Shown: positions 2,792 through 19,593 of the stretch, in pieces | Numbering within the stretch: position 1 is the first letter of the stretch | How the letters are laid out: every line of letters starts with the position of its first letter | NCBI GenBank assembly: GCA_946885435.1 | Contig: CAMPGL010000016.1 | Location: 1-21,410, forward strand | Reading direction: 5' to 3' | Origin: an uncultured Brevundimonas sp. | GTDB taxonomy: Bacteria > Pseudomonadota > Alphaproteobacteria > Caulobacterales > Caulobacteraceae | DNA length: 21,410 nt | Translations under genes and position numbers: made by a program | Notes under the pieces: generated by a model | Databases searched by the model: none | What the model saw: the letters and a program-made list of their open reading frames with translations, nothing else | What the model was told of the DNA's origin: nothing

Positions 2792-2795
2792 TCAG

Positions 2796-4007: not shown

Positions 4008-4028
4008 GGGCGAGGCGAGGAGTCCCCC

Positions 4029-7690: not shown

Positions 7691-8652
7691 CGCAGGTATT
7701 TCGAGGGTTTGTGCTGGCCGACCAGGATCGCCAGGGCGCACGAGGCCAGCCGCGACTCCTCCGGATCGGAGCGGCTCGTCAGGATCACGGGCACGCGCGC
7801 GCCCATGACGATCCCCGCCGACTGGGCGTTCGACAGATAGCAGAGCTGCTTGGCCAGCATATTGCCGGCCTCGATGTCCGGCACGATCAGGAGATCCGCC
7901 TGCCCGGCGACGGGGGACCGGATGCCCTTTGTCCGGGCCGCCTCGGGCGACACCGCGTTGTCGAAGGCCAGGGGGCCGTCCAGCACGCCCCCGACGATCT
8001 GGCCCCGGTCGGCCATCTTGCACAGCGCGGCGGCGTCAAGGGTCGAGGTCATCGCCGGGTTCACCGTCTCCACCGCCGCGAGGATGGCGACCTTCGGCTC
8101 GGCCACGCCGACGGCCTGGGCGCAGTCGATGGCGTTCTGGACGATGTCGCGCTTGGCGGAGAGGTCGGGCGCGATGTTGATGGCCGCGTCGCTGATCAGC
8201 AGGGGCCGCGGATAGCCCGGCACGTCGAGCACGAAGACGTGGCTCATGCGGCGGTCAGTGCGCAGGCCGGACTGCGGGGACACAACGGCCTCCAGCAGTT
8301 CGTCGGTATGCAGGGCCCCCTTCATGAGGGCCGTGGCCCCGCCACGCGCCGTCAGTTCGCAGGCCCGCGCCGCGGCGGCATGGCTGTGCTCCGTGTCGAT
8401 CAGCTCCAACTCCCGGACATCCAGGCCCGCGGCCTCGGCCGCCGCCAGTATGCGTGCCTTGGGGCCGACCAGGATCGGCTCGATCAGCCCGCGTCGCCCG
8501 GCCTCCACGGCGCCGGTGAGGGACAGGGCGTCCACCGGATGGACCACGGCCGTCCGTAACGGCGGCCGCCCTTGGGCCAGCGCCATGAGACGCCGGAGCT
8601 GGGACCCTGTGGCAGGGGTCGGCCTGGCGGGGGGCGGGACGGTTTCTGCCAA
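7687..8652 (-). CDS. phosphate acetyl/butyryltransferase (Pta/Ptb family)
   Basis: About 321 residues of the phosphate acyltransferase family that converts acyl-CoA and phosphate to acyl phosphate. Visible family features include the N-terminal substrate-handling segment (HPVDALSL, GLIEPILVG), LMKGALHTDELL, and the core VLDGPLAFDNAVS followed by ADLLIVPDIEAGNMLAKQL. The length without an extra N-terminal domain fits the Ptb/MaoC-less Pta type rather than long Pta. I place the start at a TTG at 8652 because CGGAG lies just upstream; the frame stays open further upstream, and GTG 8715 or ATG 8586 are alternatives. It sits between a flavodoxin-fold oxidoreductase and acetate kinase in one operon and supplies the kinase with acetyl phosphate. 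Confidence 0.88.
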   Translation of the reverse strand: MAETVPPPARPTPATGSQLRRLMALAQGRPPLRTAVVHPVDALSLTGAVEAGRRGLIEPILVGPKARILAAAEAAGLDVRELELIDTEHSHAAAARACELTARGGATALMKGALHTDELLEAVVSPQSGLRTDRRMSHVFVLDVPGYPRPLLISDAAINIAPDLSAKRDIVQNAIDCAQAVGVAEPKVAILAAVETVNPAMTSTLDAAALCKMADRGQIVGGVLDGPLAFDNAVSPEAARTKGIRSPVAGQADLLIVPDIEAGNMLAKQLCYLSNAQSAGIVMGARVPVILTSRSDPEESRLASCALAILVGQHKPSKYLR

Positions 8653-8687
8653 GTCGGGCTCCGATGTCTGGCGACGGCGGGATGATG

Positions 8688-8700
8688 GGCGGAAACCGCC
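8688..8700 (-). other. small intercistronic hairpin before the acyltransferase gene
   Basis: The sequence GGCGG-AAA-CCGCC can form a 5-bp stem with a 3-base loop in the roughly 100-base gap between the oxidoreductase and acyltransferase genes. No T-run follows on either strand, so it is more likely an mRNA processing or stability element than a terminator, or it may be chance in GC-rich DNA. Confidence 0.25.
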
Positions 8701-8752
8701 TGATCGAACAGCCACGTCGTGGCGCCGCGCGCCGGACCTGGGCGGTCGCGGC

Positions 8753-9334
8753 CTACGCCGCGTCTCGCCCGAGCGCGGCCATGCGAGCCAGCCAGCGACG
8801 CACCTGGGCGGGATCGTTGGCGCCCACCCCGCCGAACATGGTCGTTCCCTTGCGCCTGATGCCGGCCAGCCCGAGCACCGAGCGCTCGAAACAGCGCACC
8901 CCGCTGGCGCCGAAGACGAGGCGGAAGGCCACGGCCGGCATGCCCATGGAGACGACAAGGCGCGCCGTCAGGCCCTGCAGCAGGCCCTCGGGCATCTGGT
9001 TCTTGCGCCAGCGCATGGTGAACTGAGGCCGGAAGACCTGCTCGAAGAAGCCCTTGGTCAGGGCGGGCAGGCCGCCGAGCCACAGGGGGAACACGAGGAC
9101 CATGTGGTCGGCCCATTTGATGTCGCGCTGAACCGCCGCGATCACCGTCGGCGGCGGGCCGTCGTTGAACTCCGCCGCCGAGCGCAGGAGCGGAAAATCG
9201 ATCTGCCCGATAGTCACACGGCGCACCTCGTGCCCCGCAGCTTCCGCGCCCGATGCGTAGGCTTCCGCCAGAGCCGCCGACAGTCGCTCGCTGGAGGGGT
9301 CGGGGTTACCGTTGATGATCAGGATCTTCGTCAT
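8753..9334 (-). CDS. flavodoxin-fold NAD(P)H oxidoreductase (NQO/Flavodoxin_2 family), copy 1
   Basis: 193 residues with the flavodoxin-like N-terminus KILIINGNPDPSS that binds the flavin phosphate, followed by the quinone-reductase core VFPLWLGGLPALTKGFFEQVF and a C-terminal region with MFGGVGANDP. Such proteins use FMN or FAD to move two electrons from NAD(P)H to quinones or similar acceptors in the cytoplasm. It is the first gene of the - strand operon with the acyltransferase and acetate kinase. Two more members of the broad family occur in the window (12715 and 18982), but this one is the most distant of the three. The start at 9334 has no strong ribosome site. A near-perfect FixK/FNR box lies 68 bases upstream. 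Confidence 0.88.
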   Translation of the reverse strand: MTKILIINGNPDPSSERLSAALAEAYASGAEAAGHEVRRVTIGQIDFPLLRSAAEFNDGPPPTVIAAVQRDIKWADHMVLVFPLWLGGLPALTKGFFEQVFRPQFTMRWRKNQMPEGLLQGLTARLVVSMGMPAVAFRLVFGASGVRCFERSVLGLAGIRRKGTTMFGGVGANDPAQVRRWLARMAALGRDAA

Positions 9335-9395
9335 GGGTGCATGGATGAGAGAGGCGAAAACGCCCCAAGGCTCATCTCAACGCGGCGGGCCCGCC

Positions 9396-9409
9396 TTGAT
9401 CCGTATCAA
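9396..9409 (-). promoter_or_regulatory. FixK/FNR-type box A (oxidoreductase-pta-ackA operon)
   Basis: TTGATCCGTATCAA matches TTGAT-N4-ATCAA at all ten conserved positions. Its centre lies 68.5 bases upstream of the start at 9334, leaving room for a class-II promoter at about -41.5 with a short leader. It overlaps the TGA stop of the fixJ gene (9406-9408). Confidence 0.85.
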
Positions 9410-10017
9410 TCCTGGTCGAGGCCTGCCTTCAGGCCGCTGCGGATCAGGTCGGCATAGGTTTCGGCGCCCATCTTCGCCATGACCTTGGCCCGATAGATCT
9501 CGACGGTTCGCGGGCTGATATCGAGCTCGCGCGCGATCTCCTTGTTGGACTGGCCGACCAGAAGGGCGCGGAGAACCTGCCGCTCGCGCGCCGAGAGGGT
9601 CGCCTGGCGCCGCTCCAGTTCAGGGTCGGTCGACGACGACACGGCTGTCAGCGCCTGGCCGAGGACCCTCAGAAGGGTCTCGTGCTCGAACGGCTTCTCC
9701 AGAAAGTCGGAGGCCCCCTTCTTCATGGCCTCGACCGCCATGGCCACGTCCGCGTGCCCGGTGATGACGACGATCGGCAGCTTGGGATGGGCGCGCTTCA
9801 GCCGCTCGACCAGTTCGAGGCCGCTGATCTCGGGCATGCGAACATCGGTGATGACGCAGCGCGTATGGCCGTCGACGGCGCCGAGAGCGTCGAGCGGATT
9901 TGCGAACGCGCTGGCCTGATAGCCGGCGGCGTCCAGCAGGAAGGTCAGGGATTCCCTGGCCGCATCGTCATCGTCGACGACGAGGATCATTCCGTCACGG
10001 TTCATCGGCCTGCTCAT
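9406..10017 (-). CDS. fixJ: FixJ-type two-component response regulator
   Basis: 203 residues with an N-terminal receiver domain (acidic cluster DDDD at 15-18, phospho-acceptor Asp58 in TDVRMP, Lys108 in EKPF) and a C-terminal LuxR-type helix-turn-helix (about 141-195, including LSARERQVL and [23 protein letters not shown]). The length and domain order match FixJ, which activates fixK transcription when phosphorylated by FixL. The gene follows fixL with overlap: the fixL stop is at 9995-9997, inside this gene if the start is 10017 or the in-frame ATG at 10005, which has AGG spaced before it. The acceptor residues are intact, so it should be functional. Confidence 0.92.
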
Positions 10018-11464
10018 CGTCGTCCAGAAGCGGAAGCGTCAGTTCGAATCGCGCCCCGCCGTCGGGGAGGTTGCTGGCCTGAATCCGGCCGCCGTGGGAC
10101 TCCACGATGGTGCGGCAGATCGACAGGCCCACGCCCATGCCGTGCGCCTTGGTTGTCACGAAGGGCTGGAAAAGATGGCTCAAGACCTCATCGGGCAGGC
10201 CCGGCCCGGTGTCGGTCACCACGATCCGGACGAAATCGCCCTCGGCCCGCTCCGACCGGATCAGCAACTCGCGGCGCTCGGAAACGGCCATCGCCTCCAT
10301 CGCATTTCGGATGAGGTTCAGCAGCACCTGCTGGATCTGGACCTTGTCGACGAGGACGTCGTCCAGCTTGGGGTCCAGGCGCACCTGCAGGCGCACGCCG
10401 AGCTCCTTGCCGCCCACAAAGGCGAGGGCCACCGCCTCCTCGATCAGCTTCGAGAGGCTTTCAAGCCGCGGTTCGGCCTCGCCCTTGGCGACGAAGTTGC
10501 GGAGCCGGCGGATGATTTCACCGGCCCGATGGGTCTGCTCACTGGTCCGCGCCAGGATGTCCCGCGCCTTCTTGCTGGACAGGCCTTCTGGCTGATCGGC
10601 CATCAGGGTGAGCCCGCTCAGATAGTTGCTGATGGCCGAAAGGGGCTGGTTCAGTTCGTGCGCCAGGGTCGAGCTCATTTCGCCCAGCGCCGTCAGCCGC
10701 GTCACATGGACCAGTTCATCCTGCAGTTCGTGCAGCCGCGCCTCGGTCTGCTGGCGTTCCGACAGGTCTCGGACGAAGCCCGTGAACAGCCGCTCGCCTA
10801 GTCCTTCGACCTCTCCCACGGCCAACTCCATAGGGAAGGTCGAGCCGTCCTTGCGCTCCCCCGATACGACCCGCCCGATACCGATGATGCGGCGTTCCCC
10901 TGTGCGCCGGTAGCGTTCGAGGTAGCCGTCGTGCTGTTCCCGATACGGCGAGGGCATCAGCATGCTGACGTTCCTCTCGAAGACCTCTGCGGTGCTGTAG
11001 CCGAACAGCCGCTCGGCGCCCGGGCTGAACGAGCGGATCAAACCCTGGTCGTCGATCACCACCATGGCGTCCGGCACGCTGTCCAGGATCGATTCAAGAT
11101 GCGCCTCGCGCCTGCGCAGTTCGCGATTCGCGTCAGCGGCCCGACGACTCACCCGCGCCAGACGGTCGCCTGACAATCCCGCGATCAGACCGAGGGCGGC
11201 GAAGATCGCCGAGGCCAGCCAGGGCGGATCGCCTCCGCGGAAGACGAGAAGCCCGGACAGCGTCAATAGGCCGACGAACGTCGACCCCAGGGCGGTGGTC
11301 AGGCCGCCCGACAGGCCCGCCGCATAAACGATCGGCGCCATCGCCAGATAGACCAGGCCGGGACGCGTGCCGTCCTGGGTCAGCCACAGCGCCATCGGCG
11401 CCGCCGCGGCCGGCGCGGCGACGAGACCCCAATTGATCCACCGACGGTCGATCATGACCCCCAT
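9995..11464 (-). CDS. fixL: FixL-type oxygen-sensing histidine kinase (heme PAS)
   Basis: 489 residues: four likely membrane helices within about 10-100, a PAS domain (about 120-240), a HisKA domain with phospho-acceptor His269 in [13 protein letters not shown], and an HATPase_c domain with N-box Asn387, DTGPGLP (418-424) and GMGVGLSI (442-449). The PAS domain carries the FixL heme-pocket pattern: QHDGYLERY with His178 at the place of Bradyrhizobium FixL His200, and [12 protein letters not shown] with Arg198 at the place of Arg220; Ile193 and Ile196 match Ile215 and Ile218 (a constant offset of 22). Oxygen bound to heme should silence the kinase. The in-frame ATG at 11455, with GGGGG before it, is an alternative start. 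Confidence 0.94.
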
Positions 11465-11590
11465 TTAGAGCGAAGCTTGCGCCGATCGGGCGCTATGTCT
11501 GTCACCTTACGTACATATCCTTATGGAAGCAGCCCGAATATGAAGGCCGGAGCGGCCGCGATACCCCTTGCTGCGACAGGGGAGGCGGAC
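11465..11590. promoter_or_regulatory. divergent fixL / fixK control region with candidate FixJ site
   Basis: This 126-bp gap separates the divergent starts of fixL and the fixK-type gene. It holds TTACGTAC at 11507-11514, containing the palindrome TACGTA (11508-11513), which resembles the GTACGTAG-like FixJ-phosphate sites described for rhizobial fixK promoters. GAATAT at 11536-11541 could serve as a -10 element, placing the site in the -40 region for fixK. There is no FNR/FixK box here, so autoregulation by FixK is not supported. The site call rests on motif resemblance only. Confidence 0.5.
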
Positions 11591-12229
11591 ATGACCGCTG
11601 CAAATCAAATCGACCCTCCGGTCGCCGCAAATGATCCGCTGGCAACCTTGGGCGAAATTCGAACCGTCCGCGACGGGGTGGAGATTTTCACCCAGGGCGC
11701 GCCCGCCGAATACGTCTATCGCGTGCTCTCCGGCACGGTACGGACCTCGCGTCTGGCCGAGGATGGACGTCGCCAGATTGGCGATTTCCACTTCGCCGGC
11801 GACGTGCTGGGTCTGGACGAAGGCGAAGAGCACGCCTTCTCCGCTGAGGCGCTGAGCGGCTGCGAAATCCTCGTCATCCGCCGCCGCACGCTCGAGACGG
11901 CCGCCGGCGGCGACCTGATGATCTCCGAGGCGCTGCGCCGCGCAGGGTCGGATCGCCTGCGCCGGATGCAGGCGCACCTCATCCAGATCGGTCGCAAGAG
12001 CGCCATCGAGCGGGTTGCGGCGGTCCTGGCCCAGTTCGCCCGCAGGGCCGACCAGGAGATCGTCGACCTGCCCATGAGCCGGCAGGACATCGCCGACTAC
12101 CTCGGCCTCACCATCGAAACCGTGTCCCGGATGATCTCCCAGCTCCAGGCCTCGAAGGTCATCCGCCTCACCACGCTTCGGCAAATGCGCATCTGCGACC
12201 CGCAGGCCCTTCGCCAGCTGGCCGCCTGA
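11591..12229 (+). CDS. fixK: FixK-type transcriptional activator (CRP/FNR superfamily)
   Basis: 212 residues: a cyclic-nucleotide-binding-like beta-roll (about 16-105), a dimer helix (about 112-140) and a winged helix-turn-helix (about 158-205). The recognition helix reads TIETVSRMI, with Glu176, Ser179 and Arg180 in the E-xx-SR arrangement that FNR and FixK use to read TTGA half-sites, which fits the boxes in this window. The N-terminal cysteine cluster of oxygen-labile FNR proteins is absent; only Cys91 and Cys202 are present, so oxygen control must come from FixLJ. I chose ATG 11591 because GGGGAGG precedes it; the frame is open upstream to 11477 but that part lacks family similarity. Confidence 0.92.
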   Translation: MTAANQIDPPVAANDPLATLGEIRTVRDGVEIFTQGAPAEYVYRVLSGTVRTSRLAEDGRRQIGDFHFAGDVLGLDEGEEHAFSAEALSGCEILVIRRRTLETAAGGDLMISEALRRAGSDRLRRMQAHLIQIGRKSAIERVAAVLAQFARRADQEIVDLPMSRQDIADYLGLTIETVSRMISQLQASKVIRLTTLRQMRICDPQALRQLAA

Positions 12230-12246
12230 CCCCGGAGGAGACCGAA

Positions 12247-12348
12247 ATGCCCATCGAATCCCAGATCGTCGTCAGCTTCATCGTCGCGGTCTTCGTGACC
12301 TTCGGCGTCACCCTGGCCTTCGTGTCCGCTTGGTCCCGGAAGGCCTAA
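12247..12348 (+). CDS. 33-residue single-span membrane peptide
   Basis: A short gene starting MPIESQIVVSF and ending SAWSRKA, with a strong ribosome site (GGAGGAG) ahead of ATG 12247. Residues about 7-28 are hydrophobic (Val, Phe, Ala, Leu), followed by a basic end, so a single membrane helix with the C-terminus in the cytoplasm is likely. It begins 17 bases after the fixK-type gene and ends two bases before the cytochrome c start, so it is in the same operon. The size and position recall small subunits of terminal oxidases such as CcoQ or CydX, but there is no oxidase here and I recognise no specific family. The function is unknown. Confidence 0.7.
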   Translation: MPIESQIVVSFIVAVFVTFGVTLAFVSAWSRKA

Positions 12349-12350
12349 GC

Positions 12351-12718
12351 GTGTTCTGGATCGCAGCGCTTCTGCTGTCGCTGATCATCCCCCCCGGACA
12401 GCGGCAGGGCCCCCCGGCCGACCTGCAGGTCTCGCCCATACGAGGCGAGCGGCTGGCCCAGGAGCGCTGCGGGACCTGCCACGCCGTGGGTCCCGAGGGC
12501 GAAAGCCCGTTGCCGTATGCGCCGCCGTTCCGGACGATTCCCGGCCGCTATCCGGTCGAGAACCTCGAGGAGGCCCTCGCGGAAGGGATCATCGTGTCCC
12601 ACGATGCGGTGATGCCGACCTTCGAGCTGGAGCCGGACGAGATCGCGGATATTCTGGCTCACATGCGCACCCTCGAGCCCGTGAGCCGCTGGGGCTTCGG
12701 AAGGAGCCTCGCCCGTGA
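12351..12718 (+). CDS. small c-type cytochrome, copy 1 (3' end uncertain, possible frameshift)
   Basis: The N-terminus FWIAALLLSLIIPP is a short export signal or anchor. It is followed by the heme-binding CGTCH (Cys40, Cys43, His44) and the probable axial Met88 in HDAVMPTF, then a final helix IADILAHMRTLEP: a one-heme class I cytochrome of about 110-120 residues, acting in the periplasm. GTG 12351 has GGAAGG upstream. The frame has no stop near the expected end and continues out of frame through the next gene to 13061, where the extra residues look like a shadow of that gene. A one-base shift after residue 110 would end it at TGA 12716-12718, overlapping the next GTG as at other junctions here. 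The end given is this inferred one. Confidence 0.72.
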
Positions 12719-13302
12719 ACCACGCCGTCATCCTCGCCCAGCCCAAGCCGCGCTCCTTCATCCGGCTGCTGGCGGAGACCTACGTCGAGGCGGTCCGCGA
12801 GCGGGGGCATGGCGCCGACCTCATCGACCTCTATGCAATCGACTTCGACCCGCGCCTTCAGCTGGCGGAGATCCCCGGGGCGGACGGCGCCCGGCCGTCG
12901 CCGGATGTCGAGGCTCAGCGGGAGCGGCTGCGCCATGCCGAGATCTTCGCCTACTTCTATCCGATCTGGTTCGGCGGACCGCCGGCCATCCTCAAAGGCT
13001 ATGTCGAGCGGATATTCACCGCCGGCTTCGGCTATCGCACCATCAAGAACGGCGGCACTGACCCGCTGCTGAAGGGCCGCAAGCTCATCAGCGTGACCTC
13101 GTCGGGCTCGGAGAACACCTGGCTGGTCGAGAGCGGAGGCTGGGAGGCGGTGCGCACCGCCTTCGACAACCGCATCGCCGGCGCCACTGGCCTGGAGGTG
13201 CTCGATCACGTGAACTTCGGTGGGGTGGACGCGGATCTCGATCCGGCGAAGGTCAATGAAGCCGTGGAGAGCGTCCGGCGCGTGGTGCGCGAGTTCTTCT
13301 AG
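12715..13302 (+). CDS. flavodoxin-fold NAD(P)H oxidoreductase, copy 2
   Basis: 195 residues of the NAD(P)H quinone oxidoreductase (Flavodoxin_2) family. The flavin-phosphate segment is ILAQPKPRSF, followed by the family pattern DLYAIDFDPRL, the core FYPIWFGGPPAILKGYVERIF and the flavin-contact stretch FGYRTIKNG. It closely parallels the gene at 18982 (DLYRLNFDPRL, FHPLWFNSAPAMMKGYVDRVF), so the two are paralogues, and each lies near a small cytochrome c. GTG 12715 has a GGAAGGAG ribosome site. It is the last gene of the operon after the fixK-type gene and ends 12 bases from a convergent gene. The electron acceptor is unknown. Confidence 0.9.
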   Translation: MNHAVILAQPKPRSFIRLLAETYVEAVRERGHGADLIDLYAIDFDPRLQLAEIPGADGARPSPDVEAQRERLRHAEIFAYFYPIWFGGPPAILKGYVERIFTAGFGYRTIKNGGTDPLLKGRKLISVTSSGSENTWLVESGGWEAVRTAFDNRIAGATGLEVLDHVNFGGVDADLDPAKVNEAVESVRRVVREFF

Positions 13303-13314
13303 GCGGGTCGCGTC

Positions 13315-13554
13315 TTACCCGCGATTGAACCGGCCCCACAGCGACAGGGCCAGGAACAGGACCAGATCCACCACAGCGGCGGCGATGAACAGCAGCAGGA
13401 CGGCCGCGATCAGCGTCTCCTCCCGCGCCGCCTGACCTCCATGATAGGCCCCCCGCGCCACGATCAGGGTGAAGATGACGGCGATCAGCAGGGGCGGGAT
13501 CGATGCCACGAACATGGCGACCGCCGGCGCCCATGGACCCTGGCGCGGGGGCAT
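13315..13554 (-). CDS. 79-residue membrane protein of unknown function
   Basis: A small protein with two predicted membrane helices (about 12-33, AMFVASIPPLLIAVIFTLIV, and about 48-72, LIAAVLLLFIAAAVVDLVLFLAL) joined by a short polar loop, ending WGRFNRG. The ATG at 13554 lies two bases after the stop of the 125-residue gene upstream, so the pair is co-transcribed. I do not recognise a named family. As the third gene of the operon behind box B it may be produced at low oxygen. A longer upstream reading of this frame would run into the neighbouring gene and was not accepted. Confidence 0.72.
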   Translation of the reverse strand: MPPRQGPWAPAVAMFVASIPPLLIAVIFTLIVARGAYHGGQAAREETLIAAVLLLFIAAAVVDLVLFLALSLWGRFNRG

Positions 13555-13556
13555 CG

Positions 13557-13934
13557 TCAGCCGGGCTCCGCGTCGCGAACGCTGACCACCCGGAAGGGGT
13601 GGAGCTGGCCGTCCGTCATGCGGATCGACACATATTCGCCGGGCTGGAAGCTCTCCTGTTCGAGCCGGTAGCCCGCCTCGTCGAGGCGATCCTCCTCTCC
13701 GAAGTCGAAGACCCAGCGGCCGCCGGACACGTGCGCGAGGGTCCCGACCGCCTCGGTCTCCCCCTCGCGGAACCGGCGGACCCGGCAATGCGACGGATCG
13801 CGCCGCCAGCCGGCGGGATCGAGCCGACCTTGCGCGTCCAGCGGCGCGACGATGTCGTAGCCGAGATCAGGATCGCCCAGAGGCCGGCCCGGCTCGCGGG
13901 CCAGCTCCAGGCGGATGTGCGAATAGGCCGCCAT
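13557..13934 (-). CDS. hypothetical protein, 125 residues
   Basis: A soluble, charged protein without signal peptide or membrane helix. The N-terminus (YSHIRLELAREPGRPLGDP) is followed by GYDIVAPLD, a middle section with SHCRVRRFREGE, and a C-terminal beta-rich part (GEYVSIRMTDGQLHPFRVVSV). I cannot name a family or function. The gene starts five bases after the stop of the ElaB-like gene and ends two bases before the next start, making it the middle gene of a three-gene operon behind the FixK-type box at 14282-14295. Codon use matches its neighbours, supporting real coding. Confidence 0.75.
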   Translation of the reverse strand: MAAYSHIRLELAREPGRPLGDPDLGYDIVAPLDAQGRLDPAGWRRDPSHCRVRRFREGETEAVGTLAHVSGGRWVFDFGEEDRLDEAGYRLEQESFQPGEYVSIRMTDGQLHPFRVVSVRDAEPG

Positions 13935-13939
13935 GCCGC

Positions 13940-14230
13940 TCAGTGCTCTCCGGCGCGTCGCGACAGGGCGAAGCCGATCAGGGCCGCGGCCGACGCGATG
14001 ACGGCGGCCGTGGCGATCGGGTGCGCCTTCACGCCTTCCACCGCATCCTCGCCAACGTCCTGCAGCTCCTCGCCGAGCCGCTTGGCGGCCTTGCGCAGCG
14101 CCTTGGAGGATCGCCGCATGGCCTCGGCCGCCTCGTCGCCCGTCTTGTCGGCGGCCTGGCGCAGATCCTCGGTGATCTCCGACACCAGTTCATGGATGTC
14201 GCGGTTCAGCATCTCAGTCTTCTTGGCCAT
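13940..14230 (-). CDS. ElaB/YqjD-like (DUF883-type) membrane-anchored protein
   Basis: 96 residues: a long amphipathic helical region rich in Lys, Glu and Ala (1-68), then a C-terminal hydrophobic helix (about 70-90, HPIATAAVIASAAALIGFAL) and a basic tail SRRAGEH. This is the layout of the ElaB/YqjD/YgaM group, which in E. coli are inner-membrane proteins linked to stress and stationary-phase ribosome binding. ATG 14230 follows AAGGAG. It is the first gene of an operon with two unknown proteins, and a FixK-type box lies 58 bases upstream. The exact role here is inferred from family only. Confidence 0.83.
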   Translation of the reverse strand: MAKKTEMLNRDIHELVSEITEDLRQAADKTGDEAAEAMRRSSKALRKAAKRLGEELQDVGEDAVEGVKAHPIATAAVIASAAALIGFALSRRAGEH

Positions 14231-14281
14231 GTCTCTGTCTCCTTTGCGCGGGCAGGGTGCGACCTTTCGCGGTCCCGCGGC

Positions 14282-14295
14282 ATGACTTGAATCAA
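14282..14295 (-). promoter_or_regulatory. FixK/FNR-type box B (ElaB-like operon), weaker match
   Basis: ATGACTTGAATCAA keeps TGA and TCA at the correct spacing and a full ATCAA half, but the first half departs from TTGAT at its first and last bases. The centre lies 58.5 bases upstream of the start at 14230, in the short gap after the preceding gene. Confidence 0.6.
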
Positions 14296-14299
14296 GCGT

Positions 14300-14749
14300 T
14301 CAGGCGGCGCTCAGCCGGATTTCGCGCAGGGCCGCCCGGATCTCCTCCGGCGTCGCGGCGCAGCGATCCGCGGCCTGCGAAGCGACCACCTTCCTCGACA
14401 TCGTCTTGGAAAAGGCGGCGCGCAGGCCTCCGAGCGCGCGCGGAGCGGCGATCAGCACGGCCGTGTCGAAGTCGTCATCCCGCATGATCGCCTCGGCTCG
14501 CTCGGCGACCCTGCGGACGAAATCCGCCTCTTCCCGGACCTTCGGCGATTCGCGTCCGGTCGTATGCGAACCCGTGCCGAAGCGGTCGAAGACGCGGCCT
14601 GAATGATGGCTGGCGCGGGGATGCTCGGACGACAGATCTCCCAGCCGATGCGAGATGTCGTTGAGCGGTCCGCCGCGCACCCGTTCCTCGAAAAGTCGAG
14701 CCTGGGCTCCGTCGGCGACGATTACGAGCGCAGATCCTTGCAGGTCCAT
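14300..14749 (-). CDS. host-attachment-family protein (PF10116-like)
   Basis: 149 residues resembling the family named 'protein required for attachment to host cells', which has an eRF1/archaeal Pelota-like fold. Seen are the N-terminal strand ALVIVADGAQARLFEE, the middle RVFDRFGTGSHTTGRESPK, the helix EEADFVRRVAERAE and the late LIAAPRALGGLRAAF. The gene starts seven bases after the stop of the universal stress protein and has GAGGA before its ATG, so they form one operon under box C. The family name comes from one plant-interaction phenotype; here, beside stress proteins, a general stress role is as likely. Confidence 0.85.
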   Translation of the reverse strand: MDLQGSALVIVADGAQARLFEERVRGGPLNDISHRLGDLSSEHPRASHHSGRVFDRFGTGSHTTGRESPKVREEADFVRRVAERAEAIMRDDDFDTAVLIAAPRALGGLRAAFSKTMSRKVVASQAADRCAATPEEIRAALREIRLSAA

Positions 14750-14756
14750 CGGGTCC

Positions 14757-15614
14757 TCAATGTGCGAGCAGCAGCGACGGCCCGTCCGTCGCCTGGAGAA
14801 GGGTTCGGGTCACGCCGCCCAGGACGAATTCCCGGAGACGGGAGTGGCCATAGGCGCCGGCGACCAGCAGGCCCGCATCGCGGGCGGCGCAGGCGTCAAG
14901 GATCGCCTGGCCGGCGTCCTCGCCTTCAAGGCGACTGCAGTCGGCGGCTCCGACGTCGTGAAGCTTCAGATAGGCCGCGAGCGCCTCCATCCCCGGTCGG
15001 GCCGCCGTCTCCTCATCGCCGTGGCTGACGATGTCGACGTCCCAGCTCCCGCCGCAGAGGGGCAGGGCGGCGCGCACGGCGCGGGCCGCTTCGATGCGCC
15101 CGTTCCAGGCGATCAGGGCGCGGCCGATTATGCGTTCGGGCGATCCCCGCACCACCAGCAGCGGCTGGCGCTGGCGCATCAGCACCTCCTCCGCCAGCTG
15201 GACCGCCCGATCGTGCTCCAGCTTGAGCAGATCACCGGACATGACCACCAGGTCGGCCAGGACGCAGGCGCGTTCGATGGCGCTCCACACCAGCCGGTCG
15301 TGTTCGTGAAGAACCATGCGGGGCCCTTCGAGCCCCGGCGCCAGGACGAGGTCCGCCTGCTTGGCGGCCGCCGTGCAGGCCTTCTCGATGCGGGTCTGGG
15401 CTTCCCGGTTGATCTGCTCGGCGGCGTCGAAGGCCGCGGCCGGCACGCCCCCGCCGAACGCCGCCGCGCTGGCGGCCAGTTCCGACGCGATGTCCGGGTT
15501 CACGGGCAGCACATGCGCCACGGCGCCATGCTCGGCAGCCAGCCAGGCCCCGGCCTGGATCGCAGGTCCGTCGCCGCGCCCGAAGGCCAGCACCAGGATC
15601 GATTTGTAGCTCAT
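14757..15614 (-). CDS. universal stress protein, tandem UspA domains
   Basis: 285 residues with two Usp domains (about 1-155 and 165-285). The second carries the nucleotide-binding pattern G-xx-G-x9-G in AGAYGHSRLREFVLGGVT (Gly253, Gly256, Gly266), while the first is degenerate, as is common in tandem Usps. I chose ATG 15614 because CAGGAG lies just ahead and MSYKSILV is the normal Usp beginning; an ATG at 15689 would add 25 unlikely residues and overlap box C. Universal stress proteins of this kind are common members of FixK/FNR and other low-oxygen regulons and help survival in non-growing cells. It is transcribed with the host-attachment-family gene. Confidence 0.9.
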   Translation of the reverse strand: MSYKSILVLAFGRGDGPAIQAGAWLAAEHGAVAHVLPVNPDIASELAASAAAFGGGVPAAAFDAAEQINREAQTRIEKACTAAAKQADLVLAPGLEGPRMVLHEHDRLVWSAIERACVLADLVVMSGDLLKLEHDRAVQLAEEVLMRQRQPLLVVRGSPERIIGRALIAWNGRIEAARAVRAALPLCGGSWDVDIVSHGDEETAARPGMEALAAYLKLHDVGAADCSRLEGEDAGQAILDACAARDAGLLVAGAYGHSRLREFVLGGVTRTLLQATDGPSLLLAH

Positions 15615-15666
15615 GCGCGTCTCCTGCGAACCGGAGCTACACTGAGCGCGCCGCCCAGGGCGCGCC

Positions 15667-15680
15667 TTGACCTCGATCAA
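15667..15680 (-). promoter_or_regulatory. FixK/FNR-type box C (universal stress protein operon)
   Basis: TTGACCTCGATCAA matches the palindrome with one base changed (TTGAC for TTGAT). The centre lies 59.5 bases upstream of the stress-protein start at 15614. A second box (D) faces the divergent dodecin gene 20 bases away. Confidence 0.82.
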
Positions 15681-15700
15681 TCGATCCACGGGGCGGGGCT

Positions 15701-15714
15701 TTGAGGGAGGTCAA
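15701..15714 (+). promoter_or_regulatory. FixK/FNR-type box D (dodecin)
   Basis: TTGAGGGAGGTCAA keeps TTGA and TCAA at the right spacing. The centre lies 77.5 bases upstream of the dodecin start at 15785. With box C it gives the divergent pair one operator each. Confidence 0.75.
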
Positions 15715-15784
15715 GGCCTCGCGCCCGGCGGCGCGTCATCCTGGCCGTCGGCCCAACGCGGCCGAATGGAACGGGAGACCAGCT

Positions 15785-15988
15785 ATGCTGAAGGTTGTCG
15801 AAGTCCTGGCGGAGTCCTCCGTCAGCTGGGAGGACGCGGCCAAGAAGGCGGTCGCGGACGCCGCGCGAACGCTCCGGCAGGTGCGCTCGATCTACATCGA
15901 GAACATGCAGGCCACGGTGAAGAACGGCGCGATCGAAACCTACCGGATCAACGCAAAGATCACCTTCGCCTTGGAGGACGATCGCTGA
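15785..15988 (+). CDS. dodecin (flavin-binding dodecamer protein)
   Basis: 67 residues that match dodecin throughout: KVVEVLAESSVSWEDAAKKAV, the Trp20-region SW motif, ARTLRQVRSIYIENMQATVKNG, and the closing YRINAKITFALED. Dodecins form hollow dodecamers that bind flavins and are thought to store or buffer them. ATG 15785 follows GGGAG. The neighbours include three flavin-type oxidoreductases in the same presumed low-oxygen regulon, so storage of released flavin is a sensible role. A box D operator lies upstream and a strong inverted repeat follows the gene. Confidence 0.93.
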   Translation: MLKVVEVLAESSVSWEDAAKKAVADAARTLRQVRSIYIENMQATVKNGAIETYRINAKITFALEDDR

Positions 15989-15997
15989 TCAGGGCGC

Positions 15998-16023
15998 GGG
16001 CGACCGGCGATCGCCGGTCGCCC
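15998..16023. terminator. perfect inverted repeat between convergent dodecin and hsp20 genes
   Basis: Two 13-base arms (GGGCGACCGGCGA and TCGCCGGTCGCCC) form a perfect 26-bp palindrome, giving a stem of about 11 bp with a GATC loop on either strand. It sits ten bases after dodecin and 20 bases before the end of the hsp20 gene, as expected for a bidirectional terminator. No T-run follows, so termination is inferred from position. Confidence 0.65.
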
Positions 16024-16043
16024 GTCTCCGTGCCCGAGGCGGC

Positions 16044-16538
16044 TCAGGCCACCGTGACCTCGATCTTGCGGCTGTCGCCGTTGTCCGGCTTGGGCGCGGT
16101 GATCCGGAGCAGGCCGTCCTTCATCTCGGCCTTGAGCTGAGCGGCGTCGACACCGCGCGGCAGGGGGATCGACCGGGCGAAGGCGCCGAAGCGGCGCTCG
16201 ACGAAACGGTAGTCCTTGCCTTCGCGTTTCTGCTCGGCGCGCTTCTCGCCGGCCAGGGTCAGGACGTCGTCCTCGAAGGTCACCTTGATGTCCTTTTTGG
16301 TCAGGCCGGGAAGCTCGGCGGTGATTTCGATCCCGTCCTTGGTCTCCGCATAGTCGACGTTCGGGACCGGCGCGAACATGTCGAGCCGGTCCAGGCCGCG
16401 GCCGAAGTCGGCGACCGCCCGGTCGATCTCGCGCTGGAGGGGTGCGAAGAACTGCACCGTCTGATGCGACAGGCTGCGGAAGGACGACGGCTCGGCCGCC
16501 GGCTGGGGCGCGGCGCCGGAAGAGGTCTGGGCGGACAT
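16044..16538 (-). CDS. small heat shock protein, Hsp20/alpha-crystallin family
   Basis: 164 residues with an N-terminal arm (1-57), an alpha-crystallin domain (about 58-150: VDYAETKDGIEITAELPGL, VLTLAGEKR, RRFGAFARSIPLPRGV, AEMKDGLLRITAPK) and a short tail with the I-x-V motif (KIEVTVA). It is an ATP-independent holdase that keeps unfolding proteins soluble. ATG 16538 has AGGGAG upstream. The FixK-type box at 16600-16613 lies 68 bases ahead, so expression at low oxygen is likely; no heat-shock promoter is evident to me. It ends convergent with dodecin. Confidence 0.94.
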   Translation of the reverse strand: MSAQTSSGAAPQPAAEPSSFRSLSHQTVQFFAPLQREIDRAVADFGRGLDRLDMFAPVPNVDYAETKDGIEITAELPGLTKKDIKVTFEDDVLTLAGEKRAEQKREGKDYRFVERRFGAFARSIPLPRGVDAAQLKAEMKDGLLRITAPKPDNGDSRKIEVTVA

Positions 16539-16599
16539 GGCGATCTCCCTGATGGGCGTTGAAGATACGCCAGAATGCGCCGGCCCTCCTCGATGGGCC

Positions 16600-16613
16600 T
16601 TGATGTCGGTCAA
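16600..16613 (-). promoter_or_regulatory. FixK/FNR-type box E (hsp20)
   Basis: TTGATGTCGGTCAA has one full half-site and one with a single change. The centre lies 68.5 bases upstream of the hsp20 start, the same distance as box A. It overlaps the stop codon (16610-16612) of the Cys-rich gene upstream. Confidence 0.82.
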
Positions 16614-17065
16614 TCCTCGTCGGCCTGGAGATCGTCCCTCAGGTCGCGCATGCGTTCCCTGACCTGCAGAGGATCGCCGTAGGGCACGAAGCGCGCGTAA
16701 CGCTCGTGCGTCACGGGCGGCGGGGCAGGGTGCTTGATGGGGCACCAGTACTGTTCGGTGCGGGCGGCAATCTCCTGGGCGTAGGCCAGGACCCCGTTCG
16801 CATAGCTGCAGTACCCGCAATTCACGCGCTGCATGACGTCGAGATAGGGCAGTTCCGCCCGGCGGAACGTCACATAGTTCCGCCGGCGCACCCGGGGCAC
16901 GTCCCAGAGCCTGAAGCAGACCGCCTGGTAAAGGCTCACGCAGACATCGAGCAACGCCAGCGGCGCCGCCAGGCCATAGATGAACGGCGCGCCGGCCAGA
17001 TGTCGTGCCAGCTCCGCCGGACTGGCCGCGTCGCGGGTTTCGGTCCGGAGGCTCGTGTCCGACAT
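16610..17065 (-). CDS. conserved hypothetical Cys-rich protein (C-xx-C ... C-P-I-K-H)
   Basis: 151 residues. The most striking part is NCGYCSYANGVLAYAQEIAARTEQYWCPIKH (split here for description: Cys83, Cys86, then Cys108 and His112), which looks like a site for a metal, iron-sulfur or heme-type centre. Two more cysteines (42, 50) lie in a hydrophobic stretch (about 28-50) that could enter the membrane. I recall similar unnamed proteins in proteobacteria, but no assigned function. ATG 17065 follows GGGAG. It lies 51 bases after the BON gene and probably shares its transcript, and box E is embedded at its end. Confidence 0.8.
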   Translation of the reverse strand: MSDTSLRTETRDAASPAELARHLAGAPFIYGLAAPLALLDVCVSLYQAVCFRLWDVPRVRRRNYVTFRRAELPYLDVMQRVNCGYCSYANGVLAYAQEIAARTEQYWCPIKHPAPPPVTHERYARFVPYGDPLQVRERMRDLRDDLQADED

Positions 17066-17116
17066 CGGCGGCTCCCAGCAGGTCGCGGAGCGGCCAGGGG
17101 CCGCACCGCTCTTGGA

Positions 17117-17764
17117 TCAGAGGGTCAGTCGGTCGACGACTTCAGTCACGCCGGGCACCGACCAGGCGGCGGTCTCGGCCACCCGCCGGTCGGACCAGTT
17201 GGAGACCTTGCCGGTCAGGGTGACCCTGCCCCCCTCGACGCCCACGTTGATGCGTCCGGCCTCGAGCTCGGCGCTGCGGTGGAAGGCCCGCTTGAGCTGA
17301 GACTGGATGTCGGTCGACTTCAGACGGGGCTGGATGGCGATCAGGTTGGAGACGCCGCGGACGCCGGCCAGCTGGCGGACGGAGCGCTCGGCCTCGCTGC
17401 GCTGATAGGCCCAGGTCACCTGACCCTTCAGCGTGACCCAGCCGTTCTCGACCGACACCTTCACGCCCTCCTTGGGCGCCTCGACGCTCCAGGTCAGGAC
17501 ATTGGCGGCGCGTTTGGCGATCTCGTCGTCGTCATGCTTGCCGTCGAAGGGAAGGCGCACTTCGATGTCGACCGCGACCGCCCGCACGCCCTTGACGCGC
17601 TTGGCCGCGGACTCGGCCGCCAGCTTCTGGGTGTAGTTCGGCACGTGGCCGCTCAACGTCACCACGCCGTCGCTTACGGCCACGCCGATGTTCTCGGCCT
17701 CGACGCGCGGCTCGAACTCCAATTCCTCGAGCACGTCGTCACGGATGTTCAGATCCCTGTCCAT
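17117..17764 (-). CDS. triple BON-domain protein (OsmY-like)
   Basis: 215 residues made of three BON domains (about 5-71, 78-145 and 150-215). Each has the conserved glycine pattern: GVVTLSGHV, GWVTLKGQV and GRVTLTGKV, followed by A-ERSV or A-AV-type helices and GV-x-V. BON domains bind phospholipid or envelope surfaces and mark osmotic and envelope stress proteins. No signal peptide is visible, unlike OsmY, so the location is uncertain. I chose ATG 17764 (AGGAG upstream); the frame extends to 17845 but that would cover box F. It should be activated with its downstream Cys-rich neighbour. Confidence 0.9.
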   Translation of the reverse strand: MDRDLNIRDDVLEELEFEPRVEAENIGVAVSDGVVTLSGHVPNYTQKLAAESAAKRVKGVRAVAVDIEVRLPFDGKHDDDEIAKRAANVLTWSVEAPKEGVKVSVENGWVTLKGQVTWAYQRSEAERSVRQLAGVRGVSNLIAIQPRLKSTDIQSQLKRAFHRSAELEAGRINVGVEGGRVTLTGKVSNWSDRRVAETAAWSVPGVTEVVDRLTL

Positions 17765-17831
17765 GAGACTTCTCCTGACTGCAGGCGAGATTCCGCCGCG
17801 GGCAGACTCGCTCGAGACGAGGCGGAGCGCC

Positions 17832-17845
17832 CTGATCTCGATCAA
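17832..17845 (-). promoter_or_regulatory. FixK/FNR-type box F (BON protein operon)
   Basis: CTGATCTCGATCAA differs from consensus at the first base only. The centre lies 74.5 bases upstream of the BON start at 17764. Box G for the divergent cytochrome gene begins 18 bases away. Confidence 0.8.
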
Positions 17846-17863
17846 TTCTCGGGCGGCCGACGC

Positions 17864-17877
17864 TTGATCCAGATCAT
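17864..17877 (+). promoter_or_regulatory. FixK/FNR-type box G (cytochrome c, copy 2)
   Basis: TTGATCCAGATCAT differs from consensus at the last base only. The centre lies 55.5 bases upstream of the cytochrome start at 17926. Confidence 0.8.
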
Positions 17878-17925
17878 GGCGTCCCAGCCGCCGGTGGCCC
17901 CTCCTTGGCTGAGCTGGAGGATTCC

Positions 17926-18279
17926 ATGGCTTCGCTCTTCTGTTTGCTGACGGCTCTGTTCGTCCTTGTCAGCCAGCCGTCCGAAACCCCACCGCCGGAC
18001 GACTTCCTGGCGGAGATGCGCGGACAGGCCATCGCCCAGGACCGTTGTGCGACGTGCCACGCCATCGGGCGCGAGGACGCCAGTCCGGACGCAGAGGCCC
18101 CGCCCTTCCGCGGATTCCGTGCGCGAGCTCCGCTCCTCTTCGATGACCCGGAGTTCCGCGGGCGGATGACCACCGGCCATCCCGTGATGCCCGATGTGAA
18201 CCTCAGCGCCGAGGAGATCCAGGATCTGACCGCCTATCTGCGTAGTCTGGAGGACGAGTCCGACGGGGTGATCTACTAG
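17926..18279 (+). CDS. small c-type cytochrome, copy 2
   Basis: 117 residues: a hydrophobic N-terminal export segment (2-16), the heme site CATCH (Cys41, Cys44, His45), and the probable axial Met88 in TGHPVMPDVNL, ending with the helix IQDLTAYLRSLED. It is a one-heme class I cytochrome in the periplasm and a clear paralogue of the cytochrome at 12351, with CxxCH and Met88 at nearly the same positions. ATG 17926 follows GGAGG; an upstream TTG at 17905 is possible but less likely. No oxidase or reductase partner is in the window. Its TAG overlaps the stop of the convergent kinase gene. Confidence 0.9.
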   Translation: MASLFCLLTALFVLVSQPSETPPPDDFLAEMRGQAIAQDRCATCHAIGREDASPDAEAPPFRGFRARAPLLFDDPEFRGRMTTGHPVMPDVNLSAEEIQDLTAYLRSLEDESDGVIY

Positions 18280-18884
18280 GTCGGACCCCGCTCGATGACG
18301 ACCTCGACGCGCAGGCCGCCAGGCGCGGAGTTGAAGACGATGCGCCCGCCCATCTGTCCCACAAGCATGCGAACGAGCGACAGGCCGAAACCGTCGCCGC
18401 CGCCCACAGGCAGGCCGACGCCGTCGTCCTCGACGACAAGGCGATATCCGGACGGCGTCCGCGTCAGGTCCACCTCCACGCGGCCGGCGCGGTCCTGCAG
18501 GCCGTGCTCAAGGGCGTTGCCGACCAGCTCGGCGGTGATCGTCGCCAGGGACGAGGCGATCCTCGACGGCGCGACGCAGACATCCGCCTGAAGTTCGACG
18601 CAGGCAAGCCGGTCCAGCGCGTCGAGCGCGGCCACGTCACGGCAGACATCGCCGATCAGGTCGTCGAGATGGACACTGTCGCCCTCGCCCTCCTGCAGGC
18701 GCTGGTGCAGGCGCATCACGACGCCGACGCGGCGGCTGGCTTCCTTCAGCAGGCCGGCGGCCTCGGGCGGGGCGGTCCTGGCTTCGAGCCTCAGCAGGCT
18801 GGCGACCGATTGCAGACTGTTGCCGATCTGGTGATGGGCCGCCTGGATGGCCGTGCGGGAGCCAGGAGACATGTCCTGTACCAT
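18276..18884 (-). CDS. sensorless histidine kinase, HisKA_2/HWE-like
   Basis: 202 residues with only the kinase core. The phospho-acceptor region HHQIGNSLQSVASLLRLEAR matches the H-xxx-N-x-LQ pattern of HisKA_2 kinases (His18), and the ATPase part has the N-box ELVGNALEHG, DDGVGLP and GFGLSLVRML. There is no PAS, GAF or membrane sensor, so any input must come from another protein or from its own amount. I chose ATG 18884 because GAGGAG lies just ahead; the frame also allows 18917. No response regulator is adjacent. HisKA_2 kinases in alphaproteobacteria often feed the PhyR general stress pathway, which is a possible but unproven role. Confidence 0.85.
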   Translation of the reverse strand: MVQDMSPGSRTAIQAAHHQIGNSLQSVASLLRLEARTAPPEAAGLLKEASRRVGVVMRLHQRLQEGEGDSVHLDDLIGDVCRDVAALDALDRLACVELQADVCVAPSRIASSLATITAELVGNALEHGLQDRAGRVEVDLTRTPSGYRLVVEDDGVGLPVGGGDGFGLSLVRMLVGQMGGRIVFNSAPGGLRVEVVIERGPT

Positions 18885-18934
18885 GACGATCTCCTCGACG
18901 AGCTTTACTGTAGTCAACCTCGGCCCGATCGCGC

Positions 18935-18948
18935 TTGAGGCAGATCAA
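18935..18948. promoter_or_regulatory. FixK/FNR-type box H (between kinase and oxidoreductase copy 3)
   Basis: TTGAGGCAGATCAA keeps TTGA and ATCAA at the right spacing. The centre lies 57.5 bases upstream of the kinase start at 18884 and 40.5 bases upstream of the oxidoreductase ATG at 18982, so one box could serve both divergent genes. For the second gene TAGGCT at 18970-18975 is in -10 position if transcription starts at the ATG. Confidence 0.75.
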
Positions 18949-18981
18949 GGAGTCGCCCGCCGAGCGATCTAGGCTGTCAGC

Positions 18982-19593
18982 ATGGCCAGCAAACCCCTTC
19001 GCATCGCCGTGATCGCCGCGCATCCCAGGAGCCGCAGCTTCACCATGTCCGCCGCGAGGGCCTTCGCCGAGGCGGCCGTGGCGGCCGGCGCGGAGGTGAC
19101 GATCCGGGACCTCTACCGTCTGAACTTCGACCCGCGGCTCAGGGCCGGCGAGCTGCCCGACCATCAGGGCTTCTCGGCCAGACCCGACGTGAGACGGGAG
19201 CGCGCGGCGCTGGCCGGTTCGGACGTCTTCGCCTTCTTCCACCCCCTGTGGTTCAACAGCGCGCCGGCGATGATGAAGGGGTACGTGGACCGCGTCTTCG
19301 GCATGGGCTTCGGCTATTCGGCTTCCGGCCTGGAGGGCAACCAGCCCCTGCTGGGCGGCAAGCGACTGGTCGTCTTCACCTCAACCGGCGCACCGCAACA
19401 GTGGGTCCAGGACACTGGCGTCTCCGCCCTGCAGGCGCAGGTCGACCGCCACCTGGCCGCCGTGACCGGCCTGGACCTCATCGGCCACCACAACTTCGGC
19501 GGCCTCACCCCGAGCCTGCGAAGCGACGTCGCCCGAGTCCACCTCGACCACATCCGCAACGAGGCGCGCCGGATCGTGCGGGCGCGTGCCTAA
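18982..19593 (+). CDS. flavodoxin-fold NAD(P)H oxidoreductase, copy 3
   Basis: 203 residues of the NAD(P)H quinone oxidoreductase family: flavin-phosphate segment VIAAHPRSRSF, DLYRLNFDPRL, core FHPLWFNSAPAMMKGYVDRVF, then FGYSASGLEGNQPLL and the late HHNFGGL. It is a close paralogue of the protein at 12715 and a more distant relative of the one at 8753. It should reduce quinones or related electrophiles with NAD(P)H in the cytoplasm. No good ribosome site precedes ATG 18982, and the spacing to box H suggests a leaderless message. It is the last gene of the presumed low-oxygen cluster on this side. Confidence 0.9.
   Translation: MASKPLRIAVIAAHPRSRSFTMSAARAFAEAAVAAGAEVTIRDLYRLNFDPRLRAGELPDHQGFSARPDVRRERAALAGSDVFAFFHPLWFNSAPAMMKGYVDRVFGMGFGYSASGLEGNQPLLGGKRLVVFTSTGAPQQWVQDTGVSALQAQVDRHLAAVTGLDLIGHHNFGGLTPSLRSDVARVHLDHIRNEARRIVRARA

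Follow-up and report, generated by a model that had tools for sequence, protein, structure and literature searches.

A compact fixLJ-fixK block with predicted FixK class II promoters and a probable low-oxygen role in an uncultured Brevundimonas

Do the genes clustered around fixL, fixJ and fixK on contig CAMPGL010000016.1 of an uncultured Brevundimonas sp. (GenBank assembly GCA_946885435.1) answer to that circuit, and what would they do together? We analyzed the window, by which we mean the whole stretch of 21,410 nucleotides (positions 1 to 21,410 of the contig). An earlier note made from the letters, hereafter the original prediction, had described positions 8753 to 19593 as a self-contained low-oxygen survival island with eight FixK-type operators. 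The boxes look like working class II promoters with predicted transcription starts, and a FixLJ-FixK mechanism very probably controls the promoters of the island. The role in low-oxygen survival that the gene content suggests is also probable, if distinctly less so.

The box pattern TTGAN6TCAA was searched in the whole window with at most one mismatch. Nine matches were found, all within 9396 to 18948, and the rest of the window has none at this threshold, nor does the gap between fixL and fixK. The eight operators proposed originally are indeed present, five as exact boxes (9396, 15667, 15701, 16600 and 18935) and three with one mismatch (14282, 17832 and 17864). They had been described as lying in gaps or at gene ends, 40 to 78 base pairs (bp) before start codons. 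This description holds: the centers of all eight fall in the 919 bases of the 10,841-base interval that are noncoding by the gene limits of this analysis, two boxes overlap a gene end by 4 bases, and the box center lies 40.5 to 77.5 bp from the start codon. The ninth match (18904, one mismatch), unreported in the original prediction, was rejected as an operator and is taken for chance because the predicted -10 hexamer of a kinase gene (TACAGT) lies within it when it is read on the opposite strand.

Three of the eight boxes need a mismatch, which would suit the explanation that they arose by chance or as by-products of coding in GC-rich DNA. However, 100 dinucleotide shuffles of the window gave on average 1.6 matches, and never more than 5, at the same threshold. 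As a control set we used 80 loci picked by FixL similarity alone, amounting to 1.33 Mb, many of which end early at contig ends. These loci contain 147 occurrences of TTGAN6TCAA, as opposed to 1 to 17 of eleven other letter orders and 2 to 10 of six other spacer lengths, and other letter orders and spacer lengths of the box were rejected on these counts. Together with the promoter geometry and conservation described below, these controls make chance boxes exceedingly improbable.

Predicted -10 hexamers and transcription starts accompany the boxes. Those on the minus strand are the exact box at 9396 to 9409 in the promoter of oxidoreductase 1, pta and ackA (-10 GAGCCT, predicted start 9361), the one-mismatch box at 14282 to 14295 of a trio of genes including one for an ElaB-like protein (CACCCT, 14247), the exact box at 15667 to 15680 of the universal stress protein (Usp) and baeRF genes (CAGTGT, 15632), the exact box at 16600 to 16613 of hsp20 (CATTCT, 16565), and the one-mismatch box at 17832 to 17845 of the BON and cys151 genes (GAGTCT, 17797). 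On the plus strand are the exact box at 15701 to 15714 of the dodecin gene (CATCCT, 15749) and the one-mismatch box at 17864 to 17877 of cytochrome c 2, which has a weak -10 (CCTCCT) and a predicted start near 17912. The exact box at 18935 to 18948 is common to the divergent genes for the kinase (TACAGT, predicted start 18900) and oxidoreductase 3, whose -10 is one base nearer to the box. Predicted leaders are 14 to 36 bases long. For oxidoreductase 3 the predicted start falls on the ATG itself, and the mRNA of this gene, alone in the set, is therefore predicted to be leaderless.

We aligned 82 box-to-gene stretches by their boxes, 9 from the window and 73 from homologues (receiver genes found with the FixJ query included), which are not independent because some pairs come from close relatives. 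An A at +24 occurs in 57% of these and a T at +28 in 56%. When the last base of the -10 hexamer is set at -7, the box center falls at -41.5, which is the class II position of FNR-type activators. Seven of the nine window pairs have both A24 and T28, and hence a box center at -41.5. In the eighth, oxidoreductase 3, both letters are shifted by one base toward the box, and in the ninth, cytochrome c 2, the T is present without the A. None of seven window boxes shows the pair when read backwards, and other offsets are found in 0 or 1 of the 9 pairs (background 3%, binomial P = 7e-10). We also collected from all loci the 216 distinct exact boxes with 60 bases on both sides; offset 24 was counted 75 times in this set, offset 23 42 times, and offsets elsewhere 2 to 23 times. 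In six relatives, a strict combination of box and -10 matches 4 to 10 times per genome, versus 0 to 2 times for a backward control, so the combination serves as a specific, not a sensitive, search pattern.

Two further patterns were considered. GGC is frequent after the box in the 82 aligned stretches (G 57%, G 74%, C 76%), but was dropped as a promoter signal since, over the 216 exact boxes, it has the same direction as the -10 in 16 cases and the opposite direction in 10. We do not claim that paired boxes in divergent gaps keep a constant distance, as many bins were examined and most partners are inexact. Of 45 distinct pairs whose boxes are no more than 120 bp apart and of which one or both are exact, 8 are separated by 31 to 35 bp, including 15667/15701 and 18904/18935 of the window, and the highest bin is 30 to 34 (n = 7). 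The window pair 17832/17864, 32 bp apart, is uncounted because it has no exact member.

Boxes are also found upstream of homologues of many of the window's genes. Homologues were collected in all loci, some of which were chosen because they contain boxes (tblastn, E <= 1e-4, half or more of the query covered, 100 or more bases available upstream, each homologue counted once), and the 180 bp upstream of each were searched with at most one mismatch. Oxidoreductase 1 has a box before 7 of 12 homologues; in the two closest (L092 and L138) it lies at -66, and L092 is the same place as L001. Oxidoreductase 3 has one before 5 of 6 homologues (-40 to -46), Usp before 19 of 26 (-55 to -57 in L139, L084, L082 and L086), Hsp20 before 5 of 6, BON before 4 of 5, and the HisKA_2 kinase before 3 of 5 (-54 to -86). 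Lower counts were obtained for oxidoreductase 2 (1/2), the 125-amino-acid protein (3/7), cytochrome c 1 (5/16), the P-type ATPase (3/16), fixJ-like genes (32/133), fixK (10/63) and fixL (4/86), and HlyD (0/2) and permease (0/1) homologues have no upstream box. Dodecin has no homologue in the loci examined, and the sole ElaB-like homologue (L113) is at the end of its locus; their window boxes, 15701 and 14282, do have a -10. In the loci chosen by FixL alone, a box precedes oxidoreductase 1 in 6 of 8 cases, oxidoreductase 3 in 1 of 1, Usp in 10 of 18, Hsp20 in 1 of 2, BON in 1 of 2, the kinase in 0 of 1 and cytochrome c 2 in 0 of 7, and a box occurs in 6% of 200-bp stretches drawn at random from these loci.

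Exact boxes are concentrated in single islands in several related genomes. Five relatives have 16 to 58 exact boxes per genome versus 5 to 17 for the backward pattern. Brevundimonas Root608 (2.8 Mb) has 8 of its 16 exact boxes in one 22-kb island (C1:861,712-883,987), the Caulobacteraceae metagenome-assembled genome (MAG) G011 has 9 of 39 in 28 kb (C45:55,962-83,915), and Phenylobacterium haematophilum has 9 of 43 in 14 kb (C1:28,948-42,587, positions from L136 and L137). In G011 (L135) a box is again followed by genes for an oxidoreductase (nearest to oxidoreductase 2), Pta and AckA, in this order. For stretches chosen afterwards and without correction, P is 4e-15 to 3e-12 for these three islands and 2e-10 to 6e-8 for the five exact boxes that the window has within 10.8 kb, at the relatives' backgrounds. 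In Brevundimonas sp. 2R-24, the densest 15 kb seen (C1 780,496-795,741) contains 4 of 23 boxes, which adjoin fixLJK, oxidoreductase 1, Usp, baeRF and the 125-amino-acid gene (L138, L139), and on C3 of the same genome cytochrome c 2, cys151 and Hsp20 genes have one exact and two one-mismatch boxes alongside (L129). Further groups of exact boxes occur in the Brevundimonas loci L088 (4794-4960), L085 (4574-6766) and L087 (9990-12185) without matches to window genes; we would guess that they perhaps belong to cbb3 oxidase or heme genes.

A sensor and regulators suited to these promoters are encoded within the block, in agreement with the original prediction. fixL (9995 to 11464, minus strand) encodes a heme-PAS oxygen-sensor histidine kinase (Pfam PAS, HisKA and HATPase_c) whose N-terminus appears hydrophobic by eye. 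Its PAS domain aligns to the solved FixL structures 8js5 and 1dp6, and the heme-pocket residues, the His of RHDSY and the Arg of IIGIGR, are conserved. By count these are H178 and R198, which we take to be the equivalents of H200 and R220 of Bradyrhizobium FixL. The adjoining fixJ (9406 to 10017, minus strand) encodes a response regulator with Response_reg and LuxR-type DNA-binding GerE domains. fixK (11591 to 12229, plus strand) encodes a Crp/Fnr activator nearest to FixK2, with 4i2o as its closest solved relative (E = 2.4e-44, versus 3.5e-22 for an FNR). The recognition helix of FixK, ETVSR, conserves the DNA-contact pattern E-xx-SR, and the first 90 residues contain zero cysteines, such that the N-terminal Fnr cysteines are absent.

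A predicted FixJ binding site, TACGTACATATCCTTA (11508 to 11523, plus strand), is centered 75 bp before fixK. It is the window's best match to the S. meliloti FixJ site given in PMC4999443, and the sole place where at least 11 of 16 positions agree. A matrix built from 15 relatives, excluding the window, scores it at 16.0 bits and the next place in the window at 9.3 bits, where the 15 sites had been selected by their resemblance to the S. meliloti one. Among 59 upstream regions of fixK, 26 reach at least 11 of 16 positions.

The fixT gene is a single receiver gene placed after fixJ. No second, fixT-like receiver was found among the 25 window proteins scanned with Pfam, although fixT may lie elsewhere in the genome, and there is likewise none at the place after fixJ in L001 and L138. 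A second receiver gene that has a box comes after fixJ in many other loci, and we take these genes for fixT from their position and receiver similarity. The box that comes after fixJ in the window lies before the gene for a flavin mononucleotide (FMN) oxidoreductase.

The boxes could be genuine class II promoters driven mainly by another Crp/Fnr protein, such as a second FixK or FnrN, with the local FixLJ-FixK as one of several inputs. FNR, FixK and DNR bind very similar sites (PMC2908626), and some relatives have two fixK homologues in one locus (L005, L046). However, PMC4999443 reports FixK only, and no FnrN, for the four Caulobacterales analyzed, and the window's fixK is located within the block, behind a FixJ site. 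We therefore consider another activator unlikely to be the main driver, and control by FixLJ and FixK remains our preferred explanation.

Under this explanation, low oxygen would leave the FixL heme unliganded and FixL would phosphorylate FixJ, a reaction that oxygen would inhibit. Phosphorylated FixJ would bind at 11508 to 11523 and turn on fixK, and FixK, bound as dimers to the boxes at -41.5, would then activate about nine promoters of class II. Because the genes share a box at one promoter position, they probably switch on together at low oxygen. Pta and AckA would allow acetate fermentation with ATP formed from acetyl-CoA, electrons and flavins would be handled by dodecin, cytochrome c 2 and the three flavin oxidoreductases, and Hsp20, Usp, BON, baeRF and the ElaB-like proteins would protect a nongrowing cell. 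A second kinase, of the HisKA_2 type, would be among the products of the regulon.

A FixK-controlled block might instead serve general redox, envelope or starvation stress and not anoxic survival. Usp, Hsp20, BON and dodecin are families of general stress proteins. Genes with FixK motifs in Caulobacter crescentus also shift on carbon starvation (PMC3073932). Two points speak against a general role: the sensor is a heme-PAS FixL, and a mutant of the Burkholderia cenocepacia low-oxygen-activated (lxa) locus, which has a like gene content, yields fewer viable cells after anoxia (PMC3759415). A general stress role is thus the less favored possibility, though a more serious one than control by another activator, and we continue to prefer low-oxygen survival.

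Several observations weigh against the proposal of a FixK-controlled block for low-oxygen survival. The pair A24/T28 is found, in either direction, in 72 of the 216 exact boxes, and two thirds lack it; in the Root608 island, 3 of 8 boxes pass the strict combination of box and -10. A box precedes only 2 of 30 cys151 homologues and 1 of 8 homologues of cytochrome c 2 (L129, at -53), and none lies directly upstream of homologues of pta (0/5), ackA (0/4) or baeRF (0/3), genes that in the window are inside operons. The block is not whole in 2R-24, where fixLJK and Usp are within 20 kb and Hsp20 and cytochrome c 2 are on another contig, and our genome-wide background of boxes was taken from the genomes of relatives. 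The best NCBIfam models, FixL for the window's FixL (534 bits, cut-off 850) and Caulobacter FixK for its FixK (204 bits, cut-off 300), score under their cut-offs, and the FixJ site at 11508 agrees at 11 of 16 positions. In addition, B. cenocepacia H111, which is without the lxa locus, survives anoxia (PMC9104464), and Tsoy et al. limit Caulobacterales FixK targets to redox processes (PMC4999443). Finally, we infer expression, the oxygen response and the survival role from sequence and protein families.

The names first given to the gene products are supported by Pfam in most cases, as judged by a scan of 25 window proteins, with NCBIfam models also searched. This applies to FixJ, FixL, FixK and the following genes. 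Oxidoreductase 1 (8753 to 9334, minus strand) is a flavodoxin-fold FMN/NAD(P)H oxidoreductase (Flavodoxin_2), followed by pta (7687 to 8700, minus strand; PTA_PTB on the open reading frame (ORF) 7687-8958) and ackA (6497 to 7675, minus strand; Acetate_kinase on ORF 6497-8023), whose 5' ends are provisional. Cytochrome c 1 (12351 to 12734, plus strand; Cytochrom_C on ORF 12330-13061) and FMN oxidoreductase 2 (12715 to 13302, plus strand; Flavodoxin_2) lie to the right of fixK. On the minus strand are the host-attachment/baeRF-type protein (14300 to 14749; Host_attach, baeRF_family12), Usp (14757 to 15614; Usp on ORF 14757-15689), the small heat-shock protein Hsp20 (16044 to 16538; HSP20 on ORF 16044-16820), the triple BON-domain protein (17117 to 17764; BON, three stretches of ORF 17117-17845) and the HisKA_2-type histidine kinase (18276 to 18881; HisKA_2 and HATPase_c on ORF 18276-18917). 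Dodecin (15785 to 15988; Dodecin on ORF 15701-15988), cytochrome c 2 (17926 to 18279; Cytochrom_C on ORF 17905-18279) and FMN oxidoreductase 3 (18982 to 19593; Flavodoxin_2) are on the plus strand.

Four proteins, all encoded on the minus strand, have no family at the curated cut-offs of Pfam and NCBIfam. One is the small helical protein at 13940 to 14230, whose ElaB-like label comes from the original prediction, and another is a 79-amino-acid protein (13315 to 13554). The 125-amino-acid protein (13557 to 13934), whose function is unassigned, has 973 homologues at E <= 1e-3 and 21 invariant positions among 22 aligned sequences; its gene is also beside fixLJK in L003, L045, L052, L055 and L077. 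The Cys-rich protein of 151 amino acids, cys151 (16610 to 17065), has 5,076 homologues at E <= 1e-3 and no Pfam name, and is present in 43 of the 299 Caulobacteraceae genomes searched. Its residues Cys83, Cys86, Cys108 and His120 are invariant among 37 aligned sequences and could bind a metal or an Fe-S cluster. The structure model of cys151 has a predicted local distance difference test (pLDDT) score of 90, and a fold search of the PDB with it found nothing at E <= 0.001. A peptide of 33 amino acids, hydrophobic by eye, is encoded between fixK and cytochrome c 1 (12247 to 12348, plus strand), and is 58% conserved in L001.

The window has a GC content of 69%, and its FixL is 75% identical to FixL of a Brevundimonas MAG (L001) and 71% identical to that in L138. 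It is probably a stretch of a Caulobacterales chromosome, itself probably Brevundimonas-like. A plasmid origin was rejected, as 4 plasmid records match and each covers at most 1% of the island. To the left, genes for an FtsX/MacB-type permease, an HlyD protein and a P-type cation ATPase (407 to 6500, plus strand; Pfam) run in the same direction from a promoter that is off the window. Because this promoter is off the window and exact FixK boxes lie at -48 and -49 before P-type ATPase homologues in L081 and L083, the block may extend to the left, with these genes as a possible left part. The description "self-contained" thus goes unproven, the more so as the window alone cannot rule out other FixK targets beyond it. 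Just beyond the right end of the island, an open fragment of 53 amino acids (19773 to 19931, plus strand) matches the IS240-type transposase DDE domain (PF13610, 1.4e-8, positions 20-59 of the 139 in the profile) and is taken for a transposase remnant. A gene for an RTX calcium-binding repeat protein (PF00353) begins thereafter (20042 to 21409, plus strand), is cut by the window end, and is not preceded by a box at up to one mismatch.

A broader proposal, which we put forward tentatively and consider rather doubtful, is that the block belongs to a class of modular oxygen-survival islands that recurs across Alphaproteobacteria, built from small cassettes of a gene and its promoter in which the FixK class II promoter travels with the gene. 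In this lineage, the cascade would be feed-forward without a FixT brake, a FixK-driven flavin oxidoreductase would occupy the place that a fixT-like gene has elsewhere, and the transposase remnant on the right would have been left behind by this assembly. If our proposals are correct, the Caulobacterales FixK regulon, which is redox-only in PMC4999443, would extend to a set of chaperone, Usp and fermentation genes. One 11-kb block would then offer the sensor, the cascade and nine promoters with predicted starts together. It would also bear on the roles of the 125- and 151-amino-acid proteins, and on whether Proteobacteria evolved a dormancy-type program independently of DosR.

The mycobacterial DosR system pairs a heme-based kinase with a NarL/FixJ-type regulator, and Usp and alpha-crystallin are among its targets. 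It has a different box and dispersed targets and is not known to include a Crp/Fnr step, whereas the target promoters in the window carry Crp/Fnr boxes, so the likeness is one of logic, and DosR is an analogy only.

Gathering such genes and operators with their circuit had been called unusual in the original prediction, a claim that our data and the literature do not bear out. At least 4 exact boxes occur in 18 of the 80 loci chosen by FixL, and zero in 24. The 50-gene lxa locus of B. cenocepacia (BCAM0275-0323) holds, like the window, Usp, Hsp20-type, BON, cytochrome c and flavin/nitro reductase genes (PMC6127331), and is upregulated at low oxygen (PMC9104464). Cullen et al. already liken lxa to DosR and propose a role for the fixK homologue BCAM0049 (PMC6127331). 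The lxa cluster differs in its size and its six Usps, and also in that BCAM0049 and the FixLJ pair BCAL2210/2211 have locus numbers outside the cluster (PMC6127331), whereas sensor, response regulator and activator are all inside the block in the window. Our claim is that the window works like lxa, not that the two share descent.

The gene families of the window also recur among direct FixK2 targets in Bradyrhizobium diazoefficiens, namely Usp (blr2761, bll6069), host attachment (bll5315), Hsp20 (blr7961) and nitroreductase (blr4652) genes; other Usp and host-attachment genes (bll2590, bll4644, bll4645) are unmarked as direct targets in the same table (PMC6515984). The B. diazoefficiens targets are apart by locus number, and the FixK2 regulon includes cbb3 oxidase genes, none of which we noticed in the window. 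A FixK regulon predicted across 87 Alphaproteobacteria includes FixL, FixJ, Hsp20, HlyD, an ABC permease and cytochrome c (PMC2908626). C. crescentus has a heme FixL, FixJ, FixK and FixT (PMC7078487), and a FixJ site precedes fixK in Caulobacterales (PMC4999443). The window shares the heme FixL, FixJ, FixK and this site, and differs in that no fixT-like gene was seen and in having chaperone and stress genes besides those for redox. We found no publication on such an island in Caulobacterales among the open-access titles and abstracts listed, which is no proof of absence. Gene sets of this kind are already known; this one differs in being compact, in having its own sensor and in that no fixT was seen, and the distinguishing feature is the packing of the sensor, the regulators and about nine predicted promoters into 11 kb.

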